Below are positions 3,758 through 40,607 of a DNA stretch of 64,000 bases, one piece after another; within the stretch, counting starts at the first letter, position 1, and each line of letters begins with the position of its first letter. The notes under the pieces were generated by a model, which worked only from the letters and a program-made list of their open reading frames with translations, did not search any database and was not told where the DNA came from. The position numbers were made by a program, and so were the translations under genes. The DNA comes from Parolsenella catena (GTDB taxonomy: Bacteria; Actinomycetota; Coriobacteriia; Coriobacteriales; Atopobiaceae), in assembly GCF_003966955.1 (NCBI RefSeq), contig NZ_AP019367.1, positions 434,001 to 498,000 of the forward strand. Direction: 5' to 3'.

Positions 3758-4396
3758 ATGTCTGACACTTGTTGCGAGGGCTGCAACAGGCCCGACCTTC
3801 CCTGGGCCGGCCGCGGCACCGACCTGCCGATCTCTGGCTGCCGCTTCACGCTCTATCCCATGTGTGACAACTTCATCGACATCATCCTGGGCGGCCTCGA
3901 GTGCGTTGACACCTCGGCCGTCTGGAGCGAGACCGACGCGCTGTCCACGGTCTACCGCGGCAAGCTCGACTACGTGATGGACGCCGTGAGCGCGCTGTTC
4001 GCGAGCGCCTGGACCGAGGGCGTGCACATGGCCATCGAGGGCCAGGTCTCCAAGGGCTGCCCGGGCGACGTCTCCGGCGACTCCAAGCTCACCTACGAGG
4101 GCGAGGCGCCCAACCGCGCCATCGTGGAGGCCGCCACGCAGCCCTGCCTGTGCAAGCTGGCCCTCTATCCCATGGGCGTGGGCGACTACATCGACGACAT
4201 CGCCCGCGTCTGGCGCATGGCGGAGGACCGCGGCCTCAATCCGCAGACGATCCACTACGCCACGCGCATCGAGGGCTCCATCCACGACGTCTTTGCCTAC
4301 CTCACTGACGTCTGCAAGCTCATGGAGGCCAGCGAGAGCGTCCACCACTACGTGCTGCACTTCACGATCAACGTCAACAGCCCCACCGTCGAGTAG
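3758..4396 (+). CDS. ykoF: YkoF-family thiamine/HMP-binding protein
   Basis: A 212-residue protein starting MSDTCCEGCNRPDLP, from ATG at 3758 preceded by GAGAGGAAA. It has two related halves: GCRFTLYPMCDNFIDII near the N-terminus and CKLALYPMGVGDYIDDI in the second half. This matches the duplicated ACT-like YKOF domains of B. subtilis YkoF, which bind thiamine or hydroxymethylpyrimidine. It has no signal peptide and is probably cytosolic. As first gene under the TPP riboswitch it is likely a ligand-handling partner of the YkoEDC transporter. Confidence 0.9.
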   Translation: MSDTCCEGCNRPDLPWAGRGTDLPISGCRFTLYPMCDNFIDIILGGLECVDTSAVWSETDALSTVYRGKLDYVMDAVSALFASAWTEGVHMAIEGQVSKGCPGDVSGDSKLTYEGEAPNRAIVEAATQPCLCKLALYPMGVGDYIDDIARVWRMAEDRGLNPQTIHYATRIEGSIHDVFAYLTDVCKLMEASESVHHYVLHFTINVNSPTVE

Positions 4397-4425
4397 GACC
4401 AAAGGGGACGGGTTCATGTGGTCCC
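4397..4425. repeat. REP-like palindrome, ykoF-ykoE gap
   Basis: A diverged copy of the recurrent palindrome (GGACCA...TGGTCC around AAGGGGACGGGTTC), starting right at the ykoF stop codon. Confidence 0.75.
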
Positions 4426-7413: not shown

Positions 7414-7427
7414 ACGCCAAAGGGGGA

Positions 7428-7552
7428 GCCAAAGGGGACGGGTTCGTTTGGCGCCCCTCTGGTGGGACCAAAGGGGACGGGTTCGTTTGGCGCCCCTCTG
7501 GTGCCGCTTCCTGTTAGGTTTGGGACCAAAGGGACCCGTCCCCGATGGTCCC
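7428..7552. repeat. Cluster of three REP-like palindromes
   Basis: Two tandem near-identical units (CCAAAGGGGACGGGTTCG then TTTGGCGCCCCTCTGGTG) are followed by a third, diverged unit preceded by GTTAGGTTTGGGA. The complement of that flank also appears next to the copy at 39321. The cluster lies between ykoC and the radical-SAM-like gene. Confidence 0.85.
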
Positions 7553-9380: not shown

Positions 9381-9395
9381 CGGAGCGGTCCGCGG

Positions 9396-9425
9396 AACCA
9401 AAGGGGACGGGTTCGTTTGGTCCCA
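9396..9425. repeat. REP-like palindrome upstream of uvrA
   Basis: GAACCAAAGGGGACGGG followed by TTCGTTTGGTCCC. Immediately after it a CCCAATGGCGCCCTG motif occurs twice (about 9422 and 9449). Confidence 0.85.
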
Positions 9426-18253: not shown

Positions 18254-18317
18254 GCGTTGCCGTGGCGTTTCTGCGCGCTGGGAGCCTCCTGAGCGTGCAA
18301 AAGCGCCACGGCAATGC
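18254..18317. repeat. Imperfect inverted repeat with 26-bp arms
   Basis: Arms at 18254-18279 and 18292-18317 share TTGCCGTGGCG / CGCCACGGCAA, with about four mismatches and a 12-base loop. It directly abuts the REP-like pair at 18318. Confidence 0.75.
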
Positions 18318-18383
18318 GGACCAAAGGGGACGGGTTCGTTTGGTCCCGGAGGGGAGCCAAACGAACCCGTCCCCTTTGGTCCC
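18318..18383. repeat. Head-to-head pair of REP-like palindromes
   Basis: One copy (GGACCAAAGGGGACGGG...) is followed 8 bp later by an inverted copy (GCCAAACGAACCCG...TTTGGTCCC). The whole 66 bp can fold as a long hairpin. It abuts the 3' end of the PHP phosphatase remnant. Confidence 0.88.
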
Positions 18384-21657: not shown

Positions 21658-23415
21658 ATGGCCAACAAGCCCGTCGCTGACAGCCGCCGCGGGACGCAGG
21701 CGCGTCTTGGGGCGCTCAGGGAGCCCGGCCGTGCCGGCATCGTCTCGCTTGCCGCCGCACTCGTGCCGGTGCTGCTCATCTGCCTGCTCGCCACGCCCAT
21801 CTACCCGATGAGCCCCGACGAGCAGGTCCAGCAGCTCTATGCGAGCGGCCGCTTCCTTGGCGCCGGCCAGCAGCTGCTCATGCCCTACTCGCTCGTCACG
21901 TTCAGCGCTCCAATCTCTGCGCTCTACGCGCTGCTGCCGGCCGTGCCGTGGTACGCGCTTGCGCTTCTCGGCCTCGTCGTGGCCTCGTTTGCGGTGGCGT
22001 GGGACAAGACGCTGCGCTCGCGCATGTCGGGGCGGCTGTGCGTGCCCACGCTCGCGCTGCTCGTGGCCCTCGAGGTCATCTCGACGCTCTACCTCACCTA
22101 CACCATCGTGGCGTTCCTCGCCGTGGGCGCGGGCCTCATGCTCGTGCTTGGCCGCGCCGCGTTCGACAGTCCGGGCGGCGCCCACGCAACGGACGTGGCC
22201 GGCATGGCGCTCGTCGCGGCGGGCTACTCACTGCGTCCGGAGAGCGGCCTTGCCGCCATCGTCGTGTTCGCCCCGTTCGCCGTCTGGGTGCTCGTGCGCA
22301 ACCGCAACGCGGGCTCCATCGCGCGCGGCGTCATCGTCGTGGCGCTCGTGGGCGTCTGCGCGTTCGCGGGCCGCTTTGCCTATGACCACACGTCGGGCTG
22401 GGAGGGCTACTCGGCCTACCTCGATGCCGGCCGCTCCGCGCTCGACTACCCCGACCTGCCCACGGAGGCGGTCCAGGCCGTGGAGCCCGCCCTCTCCGAC
22501 AACGACGTCGACGTCCTCTACAACTGGCTCTTCGCCGATGACGGCGTCTTTGGCACGGAGTTCTTCGAGCGGCTGGGGCAGCGCGTGGACCACCTCGGGC
22601 TCTCCAACCTCGCAAGCTCGCTCAGGGCCAAGACGACCTACCTGCTCGTGGGCCTCGTGGCGCTCGTGGGCCTCTACGCCTGGGCGCTCGTGCGCGACCT
22701 GGGCGAGGGGAGGGGCGCGCTTGCCGCGGGCATCGTCCTCATGCTGCTCGCGAGCTGCGGCGTGCTCATCCTGCGCGCACGTGTGCGCCTGCACGTGGTC
22801 ATCCCGCTCGTGGCGATGGGCGTGTTCGCGCTCGTGTCGCTCGCCGGCGGCTCCGAGAGGCCCGTGGGCAGGCACGCGGCGCCGGCCACGACTCGTGCCG
22901 CCTCGCCGTGCCCGGTTCCCCTTGCCGCGGCCTGCGTCGTCCTCGCGCTTGCGGTGAGCGGTGGCTTCTGGCTCAAGGTGGCCCGTCCGCTCGCGACCCG
23001 CTCGACCTCTCCCACGATCGTCGCGGCCCGTGCGTACGTGGACGAGAACCCAGACCAGCTCGTCGTGTTCGGCCGCTCCCAGACGCTCATGTTCGCAGGC
23101 ACCAACGCGCTCGCGTTCGAGGCCTGGGACTGGCCGGACAACATGCTGCCCATCGGCGGCTGGGAGAACCACACCGCCCCGTGGGCGAGCTTCCTGGCGC
23201 GCTGGGGCATCGAGGGCAACGACGTGCTCCAACAGCTTCCCGAGCGCTCCGACATGGTGGCGGTGCTCCAGCCCAAGAAGATGGAGCTCATCCGCACCTA
23301 CCTGTCCGAGCACAGTGGCCGCGAGGTCGAGGCAAGCGTCGTGCAAGACCTTGGCCCGGGTGCCGCGGACCCCAGCGTTGACGTCTACGTCTACCGCTTC
23401 ACCTACGCGAGCTAG
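21658..23415 (+). CDS. Large polytopic membrane protein, possible GT-C-type glycosyltransferase
   Basis: A 585-residue protein from ATG at 21658 (AGGGA upstream); GTG at 21652 is possible. About ten hydrophobic segments are visible. An acidic motif, YPMSPDEQVQQL, follows the first span, as in the first outer loop of GT-C enzymes that use polyprenyl-linked sugars. The C-terminal 150 residues look soluble and probably lie outside the cell. No confident family is recognised. It lies 9 bp after the ATP-grasp gene and is probably co-transcribed, so an envelope role is likely. Confidence 0.6.
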   Translation: MANKPVADSRRGTQARLGALREPGRAGIVSLAAALVPVLLICLLATPIYPMSPDEQVQQLYASGRFLGAGQQLLMPYSLVTFSAPISALYALLPAVPWYALALLGLVVASFAVAWDKTLRSRMSGRLCVPTLALLVALEVISTLYLTYTIVAFLAVGAGLMLVLGRAAFDSPGGAHATDVAGMALVAAGYSLRPESGLAAIVVFAPFAVWVLVRNRNAGSIARGVIVVALVGVCAFAGRFAYDHTSGWEGYSAYLDAGRSALDYPDLPTEAVQAVEPALSDNDVDVLYNWLFADDGVFGTEFFERLGQRVDHLGLSNLASSLRAKTTYLLVGLVALVGLYAWALVRDLGEGRGALAAGIVLMLLASCGVLILRARVRLHVVIPLVAMGVFALVSLAGGSERPVGRHAAPATTRAASPCPVPLAAACVVLALAVSGGFWLKVARPLATRSTSPTIVAARAYVDENPDQLVVFGRSQTLMFAGTNALAFEAWDWPDNMLPIGGWENHTAPWASFLARWGIEGNDVLQQLPERSDMVAVLQPKKMELIRTYLSEHSGREVEASVVQDLGPGAADPSVDVYVYRFTYAS

Positions 23416-23445
23416 GGACCAAAGGGGACGGGTTCAGTTGGTCCC
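23415..23445. repeat. REP-like palindrome
   Basis: GGGACCAAAGGGGACGGG followed by TTCAGTTGGTCCC, beginning at the last base of the membrane-protein gene's stop codon. Confidence 0.88.
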
Positions 23446-32159: not shown

Positions 32160-32239
32160 GGGACCAAAGGGGACGGGTTCGTTTGGTCCCCTTCTGGCCC
32201 CGCCCTTGGCGCCAAGTGAACCCGTCCCCTTTGGCTCCC
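32160..32239. repeat. Head-to-head pair of REP-like palindromes
   Basis: A perfect copy at 32160-32190 is followed after about 20 bp by an inverted, slightly diverged copy (GCCAAGTGAACCCG...TTTGGCTCCC) ending 47 bp before rapZ. Confidence 0.88.
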
Positions 32240-33309: not shown

Positions 33310-34239
33310 ATGTCGTTCACCGCAGAGGTAAAGGACGAGCTCTCGCGCGTGGAGGGCCATTGCGAGAGCTGCGACATCGCCGAGCTCGCCGCGCTCGTGC
33401 GCGTGTGCGGCGCGCTGTCGTTCCACGGCTCGGGCGCCTACTCCATCCGCGTCTCCACCGAGACGGGCGCCGTGGCCCGCACGGTCATCCACCTGGCGCA
33501 CAAGGTGTTCGACCTGGATACCTCGCTCACCGTGCGCCGCTCCAACCTGCACAAGACGCGCAACTACCTCATCGAGATCCCCGAGCAGAAGGGCCTTGAG
33601 CAGGCGCTCATCAAGATGGGCGTGCTCGTCTTGGGCCGCGGCCTGTCGAGCGGCATCGCGGCGCGCGTCGTGGCGCGTCCTTGCTGCCGCGCCGCCTACC
33701 TGCGCGGCGCGTTCATGGCCGGCGGCTTCATCGCAGACCCCCGCGGGGACTTCCACCTGGAGATCGCCGTGACGGGCGACGAGTTCGCCGACGACCTCAT
33801 CGAGCTGCTCGACGACGAGAACATCACGGCGCGCGTGAACCGCCGCCGCGGCTCCTACGCCATCTACCTCAAGAGCTTCGACGACATCGCGCGCTTCCTC
33901 ACCGTCATAGGCGCGAGGAGGACCGCCCACGCCGTCGACAACGTCCGCGTCATGAAGTCCGTCAAGAACGACGTGAACCGCCGCGTGAACGCCGAGCTCG
34001 CCAACCAGGCGCGCTCCACGGGCGCCGCCGCAGACCAACTCGTCCTCATCGACGCGGTGGAGCGCGAGGTGGGGCTCGACAACCTGCCGCCGGCGCTCGC
34101 TGCCTTCTGCGAGGCGCGCCGCGCCCACCCTGACCTGTCGCTCAGGGACCTTGGTGCCACCATGCGCCCGCCCATGTCCAAGTCCGCGCTCTACCACCGC
34201 GTGCTGCGCCTGGAGCAGCTCCTCAAGCAGACGAAGTAG
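33310..34239 (+). CDS. whiA: DNA-binding regulator WhiA
   Basis: A 309-residue protein (MSFTAEVKDELSRVEGHC). The N-terminal half resembles LAGLIDADG homing endonucleases without catalysis (RGAFMAGGFIADPRGDFHLEI). The C-terminal helix-turn-helix has LRDLGATMRPPMSKSALYHR. WhiA is widespread in Gram-positives and regulates division genes. It directly follows rapZ; the usual intervening yvcK gene is absent here. Confidence 0.95.
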   Translation: MSFTAEVKDELSRVEGHCESCDIAELAALVRVCGALSFHGSGAYSIRVSTETGAVARTVIHLAHKVFDLDTSLTVRRSNLHKTRNYLIEIPEQKGLEQALIKMGVLVLGRGLSSGIAARVVARPCCRAAYLRGAFMAGGFIADPRGDFHLEIAVTGDEFADDLIELLDDENITARVNRRRGSYAIYLKSFDDIARFLTVIGARRTAHAVDNVRVMKSVKNDVNRRVNAELANQARSTGAAADQLVLIDAVEREVGLDNLPPALAAFCEARRAHPDLSLRDLGATMRPPMSKSALYHRVLRLEQLLKQTK

Positions 34240-34240
34240 C

Positions 34241-34306
34241 ACCAAAGGGGACGGGTTCGTTTGGTCCCTCCCTTCGGGAACCAAACGAACCCGTCCCCTT
34301 TGGTTC
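34241..34306. repeat. Head-to-head pair of REP-like palindromes
   Basis: ACCAAAGGGGACGGG...GGTCCC is followed by the inverted copy GGGAACCAAACGAACCCG...GGTTCC, separated by 7 bp. It begins right after the whiA stop and can fold into one long hairpin. Confidence 0.88.
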
Positions 34307-34569
34307 CGCCGCGCACACAGCGCCTTCACAAATGCGGGCGTCCGCGTGTCACGCGCCTGAGCAGCGAACGGTGTGCGACCGCGTCTCGGCACTGTTCCAA
34401 CCTGACTATGCATCAGTAGACAACTTGCAGGTAGATGGCGCGTTTTACAAATCCAATACGCGGTCGTACGTATATCCGACCACAAAAAGCGGTACGATAC
34501 CCGATGGTGTTTCCAACTTAGGTCCGCTCGGCGCAAGGGGCGCCCGAAGGGCCTTCGAAAGGAGAAAGC
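34307..34569. other. Leader/promoter region of gap; no gene seen
   Basis: A less GC-rich stretch at 34420-34505 includes a near-inverted repeat (GGTCGTACG...CCGACC at about 34464-34483) and TACGAT at about 34493. It probably holds the gap promoter. I cannot place it exactly. Confidence 0.45.
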
Positions 34570-37693: not shown

Positions 37694-39247
37694 ATGTCTG
37701 CAGTTCGCACCCCCGCGCTCCTGGTCATCATGGACGGCTGCGGCCTGGCTCCCGCCGGTCCCGAGAACGCCGTCTCGCTGGCCAAGCGCCCCTACATCGA
37801 CATGCTTAACGAGAAGTACCCGCACACCACGCTCGGCGCCTCGGGCGAGGACGTGGGCCTTCCCGACGGGCAGATGGGCAACTCCGAGGTCGGCCACCTC
37901 AACATCGGCGCCGGCCGCATCGTGTTCCAGTCGCTGTCTCTCGTGAACAACGCCATCAAGGACGGCTCGTTCAAGGAGAACGACGCCATCGTGGCCGCCA
38001 TGGACAAGGTCAAGGCCAACGGCTCCACGCTGCACGTCATGGGCCTCATCTCCAACGGCGGCGTCCACTCCGAGATGGGACATGCCGAGGCGCTGCTCGA
38101 GATGGCCGGCGAGCGCGGCCTGTCCCGCGTGCGCATCGACGCCTTCACGGACGGCCGCGACGTCCCCACGCAGTCTGGTGCTGGCTTCATGCACGACCTG
38201 CAGGCCTTCTGCGAGAAGGTCTCCGAGAAGTACGGCAACGACACCGCCATCGCGACGGTCGCCGGCCGCTACTACGGCATGGACCGCGACAACCGCTGGG
38301 ACCGCGAGCAGCTTGCCTATGACGCCATCGTCTCCGGCAAGGGCGTTGCTGCCACGTCTGCCGAGCAGGGCCTCAAGGACTACTACGCCGAGGACCCGCG
38401 CGGCGACGAGTTCGTGAAGCCGTTCGTGCTCGACGCCACCGGCGTCAACGACGGCGACGCGGTGATCTTCTTCAACTTCCGCCCGGACCGCGCCCGCGAG
38501 ATGACCCGCGCCATGACGCAGGCCGACTTCGACGGCTTCGAGCGCTCGAAGGTCCCCGCACTGGCCGACTTCGTCACCATGACCGAGTACGACGACTCGT
38601 TCGACGTGCACGTGGCCTTCCCCAAGACCGTCCCGGCCAACGTCCTCGCCGACGTCCTCGCCAGCAACGGCCTGAAGCAGCTTCACACCGCCGAGACCGA
38701 GAAGTACGCGCACGTCACGTTCTTCCTGAACGGCGGCGTCGAGGAGCCCAAGGAGGGCGAGACCCGCGTCCTCATCCCGTCGCCGAAGGTCGCCACGTAC
38801 GACCTCAAGCCCGAGATGAGCGAGCCCGAGGTCACCGAGAAGCTCGTTGAGGCCATCAACTCCGATGCCGCCGACTTCTACGTGGTCAACTACGCCAACT
38901 GCGACATGGTGGGTCACACCGGCGTCGTCGAGGCTGCGGTCAAGGCCTGCGAGGCCGTCGATGATGGCCTGTCCCGTGTCATCCCGGCCATTCTCGCCAA
39001 GGGCGGCTTTGCCCTCATCACGGCCGACCACGGTAATGCGGACCACATGTACGACGTCGTGGACGGCAAGGAGAAGCCCTTCACCGCCCACACGACCAAC
39101 CGCGTGCCCCTCATCGTCGTCGACGACAAGCCCGTCGAGCTTTCCGGCATCGAGGACGGTCGCCTCTCCGACATCGCCCCCACCATCCTCGCGATGATGG
39201 GCGTCGATCGTCCCGCCGAGATGACGGGTCGCGTGCTCGTCAAGTAG
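37694..39247 (+). CDS. gpmI: 2,3-bisphosphoglycerate-independent phosphoglycerate mutase
   Basis: A 517-residue protein. The metal and phosphoserine site appears as LLVIMDGCGLAP and GQMGNSEVGHLNIGAGR (Ser near residue 61). Later metal ligands lie in YANCDMVGHTG and ITADHGNADHM. It interconverts 3- and 2-phosphoglycerate using manganese in the family. It closes the pgk-tpiA-gpmI unit. Confidence 0.97.
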   Translation: MSAVRTPALLVIMDGCGLAPAGPENAVSLAKRPYIDMLNEKYPHTTLGASGEDVGLPDGQMGNSEVGHLNIGAGRIVFQSLSLVNNAIKDGSFKENDAIVAAMDKVKANGSTLHVMGLISNGGVHSEMGHAEALLEMAGERGLSRVRIDAFTDGRDVPTQSGAGFMHDLQAFCEKVSEKYGNDTAIATVAGRYYGMDRDNRWDREQLAYDAIVSGKGVAATSAEQGLKDYYAEDPRGDEFVKPFVLDATGVNDGDAVIFFNFRPDRAREMTRAMTQADFDGFERSKVPALADFVTMTEYDDSFDVHVAFPKTVPANVLADVLASNGLKQLHTAETEKYAHVTFFLNGGVEEPKEGETRVLIPSPKVATYDLKPEMSEPEVTEKLVEAINSDAADFYVVNYANCDMVGHTGVVEAAVKACEAVDDGLSRVIPAILAKGGFALITADHGNADHMYDVVDGKEKPFTAHTTNRVPLIVVDDKPVELSGIEDGRLSDIAPTILAMMGVDRPAEMTGRVLVK

Positions 39248-39319: not shown

Positions 39320-39320
39320 C

Positions 39321-39350
39321 GGACCAAAGGGGACGGGTTCAGTTGGTCCC
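39321..39350. repeat. REP-like palindrome, left flank of the RAYT gene
   Basis: GGACCAAAGGGGACGGG then TTCAGTTGGTCCC, followed by AAACCTAAC. The complement of that flank precedes the third unit at 7528. Confidence 0.88.
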
Positions 39351-39493
39351 AAACCTAACGGAAATCAAACAAGGTAGCTGCGGCTATGTCGCACGGCGCC
39401 CATTGTTATCCGCTGGTCTTCTCGGCTGTAATTTCAAAATGCTTGCTGGGTATACGCATTCTCACCTGAAACGCGAGGGATTGGGGAGGGGCG

Positions 39494-40243
39494 ATGGTAA
39501 GGGGACCGAGGGCCATATCGAACAGCGGCTACTACCACGTTATGCTTCGAGGGGCTGGCAGGCAGCTTTTGTTCGAGAATGACGTAGACAAGCGAACGTT
39601 TCTTCGCTACCTGACCGAGGCAATCGCTGGTACAAAGACAAGCCTCATCGCATGGTGTCTTATGGATAACCATGTCCATCTGTTGCTTTGCGATCCGCAG
39701 AATTCCCTTGCTGGCCTTATGCATTCCGTCTCAACTCGATTTGCCCTGTACTTCAACGGGAAATCGGGCCATGTCGGGCCCGTTTTCCAAGGCAGGTTCA
39801 AGAGCAAGGCCATCGAGACGAACGAGTACCTCTTGCAGGCCGTTCGGTATATCCACGACAATCCGTGTGAGCTGGGCGTATCGCGAGACTCATACCAGTG
39901 GAGCAGCTATTCGGAATACGTTGGCGATTCGAGGATTACGGACGTCGCTCCCGTATTGGAGCTCATTGGCGGGAAGGAGTCGTTTGTCGGGTTTAGTGCC
40001 GCCGGCCGTGACGATTCCTACACTCCCTATGAGTCGGGAAGGTTGTCTGAATCCGAGATTTCTCGGGTGCTGCGTCGTGAGTTAAAGGACCGCGGGATAG
40101 ATGTCGGGGAGATAAAAGCGCTTCATCCGAACAGGCGAGACCAGATCTTCAGGCGACTTCATCGATGCGGCCTGTCCGTTCGCCAGATCGAGCGGGTGAC
40201 GGGAGTGGGCAGAAAAGCCATCACGAGAGCCGTCAGGCAGTAG
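39494..40243 (+). CDS. REP-associated tyrosine transposase (RAYT, Y1/HUH family)
   Basis: A 249-residue protein. The HUH motif is DNHVHLLL (His60, His62) and the catalytic Tyr is Y119 in VRYIHDNP. Family landmarks YHVMLRGAGRQ, FENDVDKRTFLRYL and VGPVFQGRFKSK are present. The C-terminal 60 residues form a DNA-binding-like helical domain ending GRKAITRAVRQ. RAYTs nick and join single-stranded DNA at REP palindromes. Two such palindromes in opposite orientation flank it. Its base composition is visibly less GC-rich than its neighbours, suggesting transfer. It interrupts the conserved tpi-secG neighbourhood. Confidence 0.92.
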   Translation: MVRGPRAISNSGYYHVMLRGAGRQLLFENDVDKRTFLRYLTEAIAGTKTSLIAWCLMDNHVHLLLCDPQNSLAGLMHSVSTRFALYFNGKSGHVGPVFQGRFKSKAIETNEYLLQAVRYIHDNPCELGVSRDSYQWSSYSEYVGDSRITDVAPVLELIGGKESFVGFSAAGRDDSYTPYESGRLSESEISRVLRRELKDRGIDVGEIKALHPNRRDQIFRRLHRCGLSVRQIERVTGVGRKAITRAVRQ

Positions 40244-40260
40244 ACGAGGACGGGCGACGC

Positions 40261-40291
40261 GGGACCAAACGAACCCGTCCCCTTTGGTTCC
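40261..40291. repeat. REP-like palindrome, right flank of the RAYT gene, inverted
   Basis: GGGACCAAACGAACCCG then TCCCCTTTGGTTCC, opposite in orientation to the left-flank copy and 18 bp past the RAYT stop. Confidence 0.88.
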
Positions 40292-40346: not shown

Positions 40347-40607
40347 GTGGGTCCCATGAATACGATTCTGCTGGTGGCTTGGGCCATCTCCGCCGTCGCC
40401 CTCATCGTCCTTGTGCTCATGCACTCCGGCAAGGGCACCGGCGTCTCCGACATGATCGCCTCGTCCATGTACAACGCCAACGCTGGCAGCGGCGTGTGGG
40501 AGAAGAACCTCGACCGCCTCACCGTCATCGCGGCCGTCGTGTTCATCGCCACGATCGTGATCTTCATGCTCACCTACCCGCTGGGCACGGTCTCCTCGCT
40601 CGGCTAG
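40347..40607 (+). CDS. secG: SecG protein-export subunit
   Basis: An 86-residue protein with two membrane spans (about residues 4-24 and 57-77) and the SecG linker LMHSGKGTGVSDMI. It is part of the SecYEG translocon. GTG at 40347 is preferred because AAGGAG lies 7 bases upstream; ATG at 40356 would be 16 bases away. secG next to the glycolytic genes is the usual actinobacterial order. Confidence 0.93.
   Translation: MGPMNTILLVAWAISAVALIVLVLMHSGKGTGVSDMIASSMYNANAGSGVWEKNLDRLTVIAAVVFIATIVIFMLTYPLGTVSSLG

Follow-up and report, generated by a model that had tools for sequence, protein, structure and literature searches.

The one intact RAYT gene of Parolsenella catena is flanked on either side, in opposite orientations, by a 31-bp palindrome, GGGACCAAA-GGGGACGGGTTCG-TTTGGTCCC, which recurs throughout the genome and combines a genome-specific outer stem, or dialect, with a constant GGGGAC tag. 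We consider it likely (a probability of about 0.8) that this is a RAYT of the TIRYT/TnpA_Y1 subclass 2.1 branch together with the non-autonomous, REPIN-like palindromes that it would mobilise. The anatomy, copy number, association with the RAYT, dialect matching, shared sites and allele exchange described below were read from the sequences themselves.

The RAYT Gene and Its Surroundings

Within the 64-kb window (the whole stretch of DNA analysed), the gene encodes a protein of 249 aa that matches Pfam Y1_Tnp (E 1.8e-10) and scores 59.5 bits on NCBIfam REP_Tyr_transpos, below the cut-off of 80. Among 67 relatives, NHVH (residues 59-62) and Tyr119 show little or no variation, and the original prediction of an intact Y1/HUH RAYT (H60, H62, Y119) between inverted palindromes is borne out (Table 1). 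YIHDNP at 119-124 corresponds to the Y---NP motif, and the HUH core NH[V/F/Y]H is also present. A Foldseek search with the AlphaFold2 model (pLDDT 93.2) placed 4er8, the E. coli TnpA_REP, first (E 3.9e-7) and the IS608/ISDra2 transposases next; 4er8 was also the only solved structure matched by the RAYT profile. Helices 204-248 of the model form the C-terminal tail. HTH_23 and HTH_28 are matched in 11 and 5 of the 67 relatives, respectively, and a domain search for HTH on the window protein itself gave no match of its own. An Rfam search at the locus was without a match.

The gene has a GC content of 55.2% compared with 67.0% for the window, lower as had been stated. The gene order is tpiA, gpmI, RAYT, secG; the RAYT had been said to split a tpi-secG neighborhood, which is right for the adjoining secG, but the left neighbor is gpmI and tpiA is the next gene upstream. 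The RAYT content of the genome is completed by one remnant with 46% identity. Two IS200-type Y1 transposase genes with equal scores, distinct from the RAYT, are found in the same genome (L009 and L010, at G000:C1:123848 and 1230614), and both outscore it by far on the Y1 model.

Table 1. RAYT locus and palindromic units in the window; G059 is the sister species.
Feature	Position	Strand	Basis or remark
RAYT/TIRYT gene, Y1 HUH transposase, helix-turn-helix-like C-terminal tail	39494..40243	+	Pfam, NCBIfam, conserved HUH/Tyr, AF2, Foldseek
gpmI, left neighbor (context)	37694..39247	+	domain annotation
secG, right neighbor (context)	40347..40607	+	domain annotation
Leader between left unit and RAYT	39351..39493	+	islands ACGGAAATC.AACAA..TAGCTGC and GCTGGGTATACGC also in G059 RAYT leader (comparison by eye)
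Left flanking palindromic unit of RAYT	39320..39350	+	
Right flanking palindromic unit of RAYT, inverted	40261..40291	-	
Palindromic unit	4395..4425	+	abuts TAG stop; G059 site empty
Palindromic unit	7425..7455	+	
Palindromic unit	7464..7494	+	added partner
Palindromic unit	7522..7552	-	added partner; then inward AAACCTAAC as inside RAYT left unit
Palindromic unit	9394..9424	+	site common to sister species, other stem there
Palindromic unit	18317..18347	+	left half of head-to-head pair (pair folds z = -11)
Palindromic unit	18353..18383	-	added partner; right half of 18317 pair
Palindromic unit	23415..23445	+	abuts TAG stop
Palindromic unit	32160..32190	+	left half of pair common to sister species
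Palindromic unit	32208..32238	-	added partner; right half of 32160 pair
Palindromic unit	34238..34268	+	left half of pair; abuts TAG stop
Palindromic unit	34277..34307	-	added partner; right half of 34238 pair

The Repeat Population

There are 14 units in the window, where GGGACCAAA has 10 matches against 0.22 expected by chance; all of the palindrome positions originally listed are real, and partners could be added to them (Table 1). Units collected from stretches around repeat sites in the single-contig genome (1,796,691 bp, 1.80 Mb) amount to about 84 near-consensus copies in 48 clusters, with GGGGACGGGTT at 70 sites versus 2 for the reversed control and GGGACCAAA at 63 versus 4 for its control. 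Head-to-head pairs are frequent, as had been noted, with 21 adjacent pairs in +- arrangement, 12 in ++, three in -- and none in -+, and the +- pairs repeat the outward-to-inward layout of the units that flank the RAYT. Paired units form long hairpins on folding (-35 to -39 kcal/mol, z about -11); an isolated single unit folds only weakly (z 0 to -1.9). Within the genome, pair covariation is weak relative to shuffles because most columns hardly vary, and the case for stem pairing is made by the difference between dialects and by the folding of dimers.

According to a home-made gene caller, 44 of the 48 clusters are intergenic, 24 genes genome-wide end within 3 nt of a unit, and the distance from a unit to a downstream start codon is never less than 17 nt. 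An effect of the repeats on transcript ends is therefore plausible, and a role for the units there is possible. Among the 24 flush genes, 22 end in TAG, with the unit starting exactly at the stop codon in cases such as 4395, 23415, and 34238. TAG is likewise the usual stop of genes far from any unit (65/94), so targeting of TAG is weakly indicated and we do not claim this stop codon as an insertion target. A GTAG tag upstream of the unit was rejected as well, the upstream TAG being explained by stop codons.

Stem Dialects and Copy Number Across the Family

The outer stem of P. catena units is GGGACC/GGTCCC. ACCAAAGGGGACGGGTT has 41 copies in P. catena, two in the sister species G059 and none in 138 other genomes, and TGCCAWWGGGGACGGGTT has 44 copies in G059, two in P. 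catena and none in the 138 others; each matches the RAYT flanks of its own genome. In G063 the units and the RAYT flanks both carry TGGAACA...TTCCA, and G097 contains two unit classes, GTGAGACAAA...TTTGTCTCAT and ...TAAAA...TTTCTCTCAGAG, each matching the flanks of a different G097 RAYT. To judge by these letters, there are five matched RAYT-stem dialects on a constant GGGGAC tag, two of them in one genome, and this appears to be new. A wider set of 101 RAYT loci, ranging from Coriobacteriia to Clostridia, includes 81 that are flanked by exact inverted repeats of 13 nt or more, and GGGAC is present in 66 of the 81.

The comparison of copy number covered 140 family genomes, of which 83 have a RAYT relative and 57 lack one. 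At least 10 copies of the core GGGGACGGGTT were found in 17/83 genomes with a RAYT relative and in 0/57 without (Fisher 6.5e-5, phylogeny ignored), and at least six copies in 27/83 and 0/57, respectively (9e-8, phylogeny ignored); the maximum in RAYT-less relatives was five. The reversed control pattern was also slightly commoner in RAYT genomes (P 0.0065). The original prediction had named this comparison as one that could refute it, and copy number of the core does track RAYT presence. The presence of a RAYT alone is insufficient for expansion, since 66 of the 83 genomes with one show no expansion of this core.

Probable Allele Exchange and Shared Sites in the Sister Species

Our comparison within the genus involves two species, P. 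catena and its sister G059, whose gpmI-secG site likewise carries a RAYT. The gpmI-secG gap is 1103 bp in P. catena and 1247 bp in G059, and 102-263 bp without a RAYT in 11 other family genomes. Therefore, the RAYT was already inserted before the two species separated, and the recent arrival that had been suggested for this gene has to be abandoned. The two RAYTs are each other's closest relatives with 66% identity, and their dS of 1.52 compares with 0.10-0.23 for tpiA, gpmI, secG, and the next gene and with a maximum of 0.664 (median 0.305) over 66 other orthologous genes. The best reading of these divergences is that the RAYT allele was exchanged at this locus after insertion. Alignment between the species extends through the flanking terminator and the secG leader right up to the units, so the exchanged segment is apparently bounded by them. 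By the same kind of comparison, a second syntenic locus repeats the pattern: a RAYT in G059 faces a 5'-truncated remnant in P. catena (L309, G000:C1:1675977-1676480) at a dS of 1.30, with 0.52 for the upstream and 0.59 for the downstream gene, and the flanks carry TTGACAAAGGGAC-type repeats in G059 and ATGAGACAAGGGGAC-type repeats in P. catena.

About 25 (26) syntenic intergenic sites hold units in both species, nearly always with different stems. Positions correspond closely at most of them, with a few loose alignments, e.g., 297437. The unit consensus is GGgACCAAA-GGGGACGGGTTC-GTTTGGTCCC in P. catena and CaTGCCAtT-GGGGACGGGTTC-CTtTGGCAtG in G059; stem pairs -9/21, -7/19, and -6/18 are changed on both arms, and -8/20 is mixed in G059. 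Five further P. catena sites could be placed by synteny; two of these positions are empty in G059, and the remaining three are occupied by decayed units or by another family. Few copies of the old dialect are left, and many sites persist. Two units in the G059 dialect occur at G000:C1:303553-303601 (303553/303580; L017, L018) and are identical at the G059 site, which makes this either a relic of the ancestral state or a site acquired by introgression.

G059 also has a second palindrome family, TGACAGTT-GGGGACGGGGTC-AAACTGTCA (G059:C1:598418, 598462, 625928, 1237776, 1327211, and 1327255; L111, L112, L161, L118), with no cognate RAYT found beside its copies. One copy occupies the site of a GGGACC unit in P. 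catena.

A Possible Mechanism

From this pattern we infer mobilisation, cleavage and targeting at the tag, and overwriting in place. The enzyme would most likely act on single-stranded DNA and recognise the hairpin through the outer stem letters, with the GGGGAC tag serving as a guide or as the cleavage and target sequence. The RAYT gene would be the autonomous version of a head-to-head pair and the pairs its internally deleted derivatives; the 7522-7552 unit, with its inward AAACCTAAC, is a possible internal-deletion derivative of this kind. New copies would probably go in beside the GGGGAC tag of copies already present, and where a RAYT allele of another dialect replaced the old one at its locus, the population would be overwritten in place rather than spread to new sites.

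A possible parallel comes from IS200/IS605 elements, which insert on the 3' side of a short target that is read by a guide. Half-units that end right after GGGGAC, with a full unit directly downstream, make up about 12/27 in the G063 stretches and a few elsewhere; P. catena has only a few among 77 units, with variable breakpoints. At the left border of the G059 RAYT, TGACACTT-GGGGACGAA precedes a TGCC unit. By analogy, such half-units look like insertion 3' of a resident tag, which would explain how sites persist while stems change, although they could alternatively be products of replication slippage. Use of the tag as an insertion target is a tentative suggestion, somewhat short of even odds. 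The recognition code may then change as a new-dialect allele takes the place of the old one within the pair of units that flank it, with its copies inserting on the 3' side of resident GGGGAC tags, so that sites are kept and stems switch genome-wide, a scenario that we regard as possible but clearly below even odds. Half-units TGGAACAGGGGAC are also seen directly before full units in G063 and G065 (L259-L268), and at both ends of the G063 RAYT.

Alternative Explanations

Shared sites could alternatively be insertion hot spots. If units inserted independently at preferred positions, namely gene 3' ends after TAG stops, the sites would coincide without any overwriting. This is rather unlikely, though units do hug stop codons, with TAG in 22/24 flush genes, and at one shared site G059 has a different repeat family; the 65/94 TAG stops in genes far from units weaken the argument, and about 25 shared sites out of roughly 50 clusters in each species are far above the one or two expected by chance on a rough estimate. 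Gradual co-divergence of RAYT and stems in both lineages by compensatory mutation, with neither allele exchange nor overwriting, would suit two mutually closest RAYTs at the same locus with common leader islands, and the paired changes on both stem arms. However, it has to accommodate a RAYT dS of 1.52 where none of 66 other genes exceeds 0.664, and of 1.30 against 0.52-0.59 at the second locus, and would need the same paired changes independently in dozens of dispersed units, making it improbable.

The repeats might also be hairpins maintained by the host, for example as terminators or mRNA-end stabilisers, on which the RAYT merely lands. Their largely intergenic clusters (44/48) and the 24 genes ending within 3 nt of a unit are in keeping with this, but five instances of stems matching the RAYT flanks of their own genome, two of them dialects of a single genome, and at most five core copies in RAYT-less relatives argue against it, and we judge it quite improbable. 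Finally, an ordinary IS200-type insertion sequence with MITE derivatives would share the Y1 transposase fold and the non-autonomous derivatives. We think this very improbable for a single-copy gene with a YIHDNP motif that matches REP_Tyr_transpos rather than the IS200 model, in a genome whose two true IS200-type genes are distinct and score far higher on the Y1 model.

Relation to Known Systems

By length, motifs, tail, and flanks, the window RAYT appears to fit the HTH-tailed, GGGGAC-tagged TIRYT/TnpA_Y1 subclass 2.1 branch, and the broad kind is thus already known. The accessible text on TIRYTs and TIRtrons describes a Y1 gene with terminal inverted repeats and the motif GGGGWSAS, some of them repeated as dimers (Di Nocera et al., 2013; PMC3733652). 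As there, our Y1 gene lies between inverted repeats that recur elsewhere in the genome as dimers. In the core GGGGACGGG, one base, the seventh (GGGGACGG), does not fit GGGGWSAS, whereas the GGGGACAG of many relatives fits exactly. The accessible text of that work (PMC3733652) makes no mention of Coriobacteriia, matched dialects or site-conserved turnover. Subclass 2.1 (Bertels group 1) has a median length of 238 aa, NHVH, Y---NP and an HTH_23/HTH_28-like C-terminal tail, and includes 20/26 TIRYTs; no REP-like sequences were reported for it (Quentin et al., 2018; PMC6006769). Set against the about 84 REPIN-like units counted here, this makes a REPIN-like population in Coriobacteriia, for a branch reported without REPs, apparently new.

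The GTAG REP/REPIN-RAYT systems of E. coli, Pseudomonas, and Stenotrophomonas similarly have one RAYT per REP class and intergenic inverted pairs, and like canonical REP-RAYTs the present gene has a cognate, intergenic population, mostly in inverted pairs. The likeness to gammaproteobacterial RAYT/REP organisation drawn in the original prediction accordingly holds in outline, but the tag is GGGGAC and not GTAG, and the protein fits the HTH-tailed TIRYT branch (PMC3733652; PMC6006769). A GT[AG]G tetranucleotide at the hairpin foot is absent from the unit consensus, where the tag lies between the arms. CGTC-tagged REPs, which have CGTC at one end and no dedicated transposase, were rejected as a match: CGTC is confined to the core, where it reads on the reverse strand, and the units have a RAYT between them. 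With IS200/IS605 elements (IS608, ISDra2) the gene shares the HUH-Tyr fold; it differs in its motifs and in not being a multicopy IS, and multiple near-identical complete RAYT copies were not found in the P. catena genome. A literature search with the core strings returned unrelated papers only, and no REPs in Coriobacteriia were found in the searchable literature. The suggestion that the family may be undescribed is fair for Coriobacteriia to that extent, though the wider kind has been known since 2013.

An "orthoswitch" of REP class at syntenic RAYTs has been proposed, in which old REPs stay and decay (Nunvar et al., 2013; PMC3686654). Here the old dialect is almost gone and many sites are kept; such a site-preserving stem switch, as the aligned sites would have it, appears to be new and is unlike the published expectation. 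REP-RAYT systems are mostly known from Proteobacterial GTAG repeats, and how repeats track a change of enzyme has so far been speculation ("orthoswitch"; PMC3686654). Two sister species with the same sites and tag but two dialects make this tracking directly testable, and five RAYT-hairpin pairs are now available for specificity mapping.
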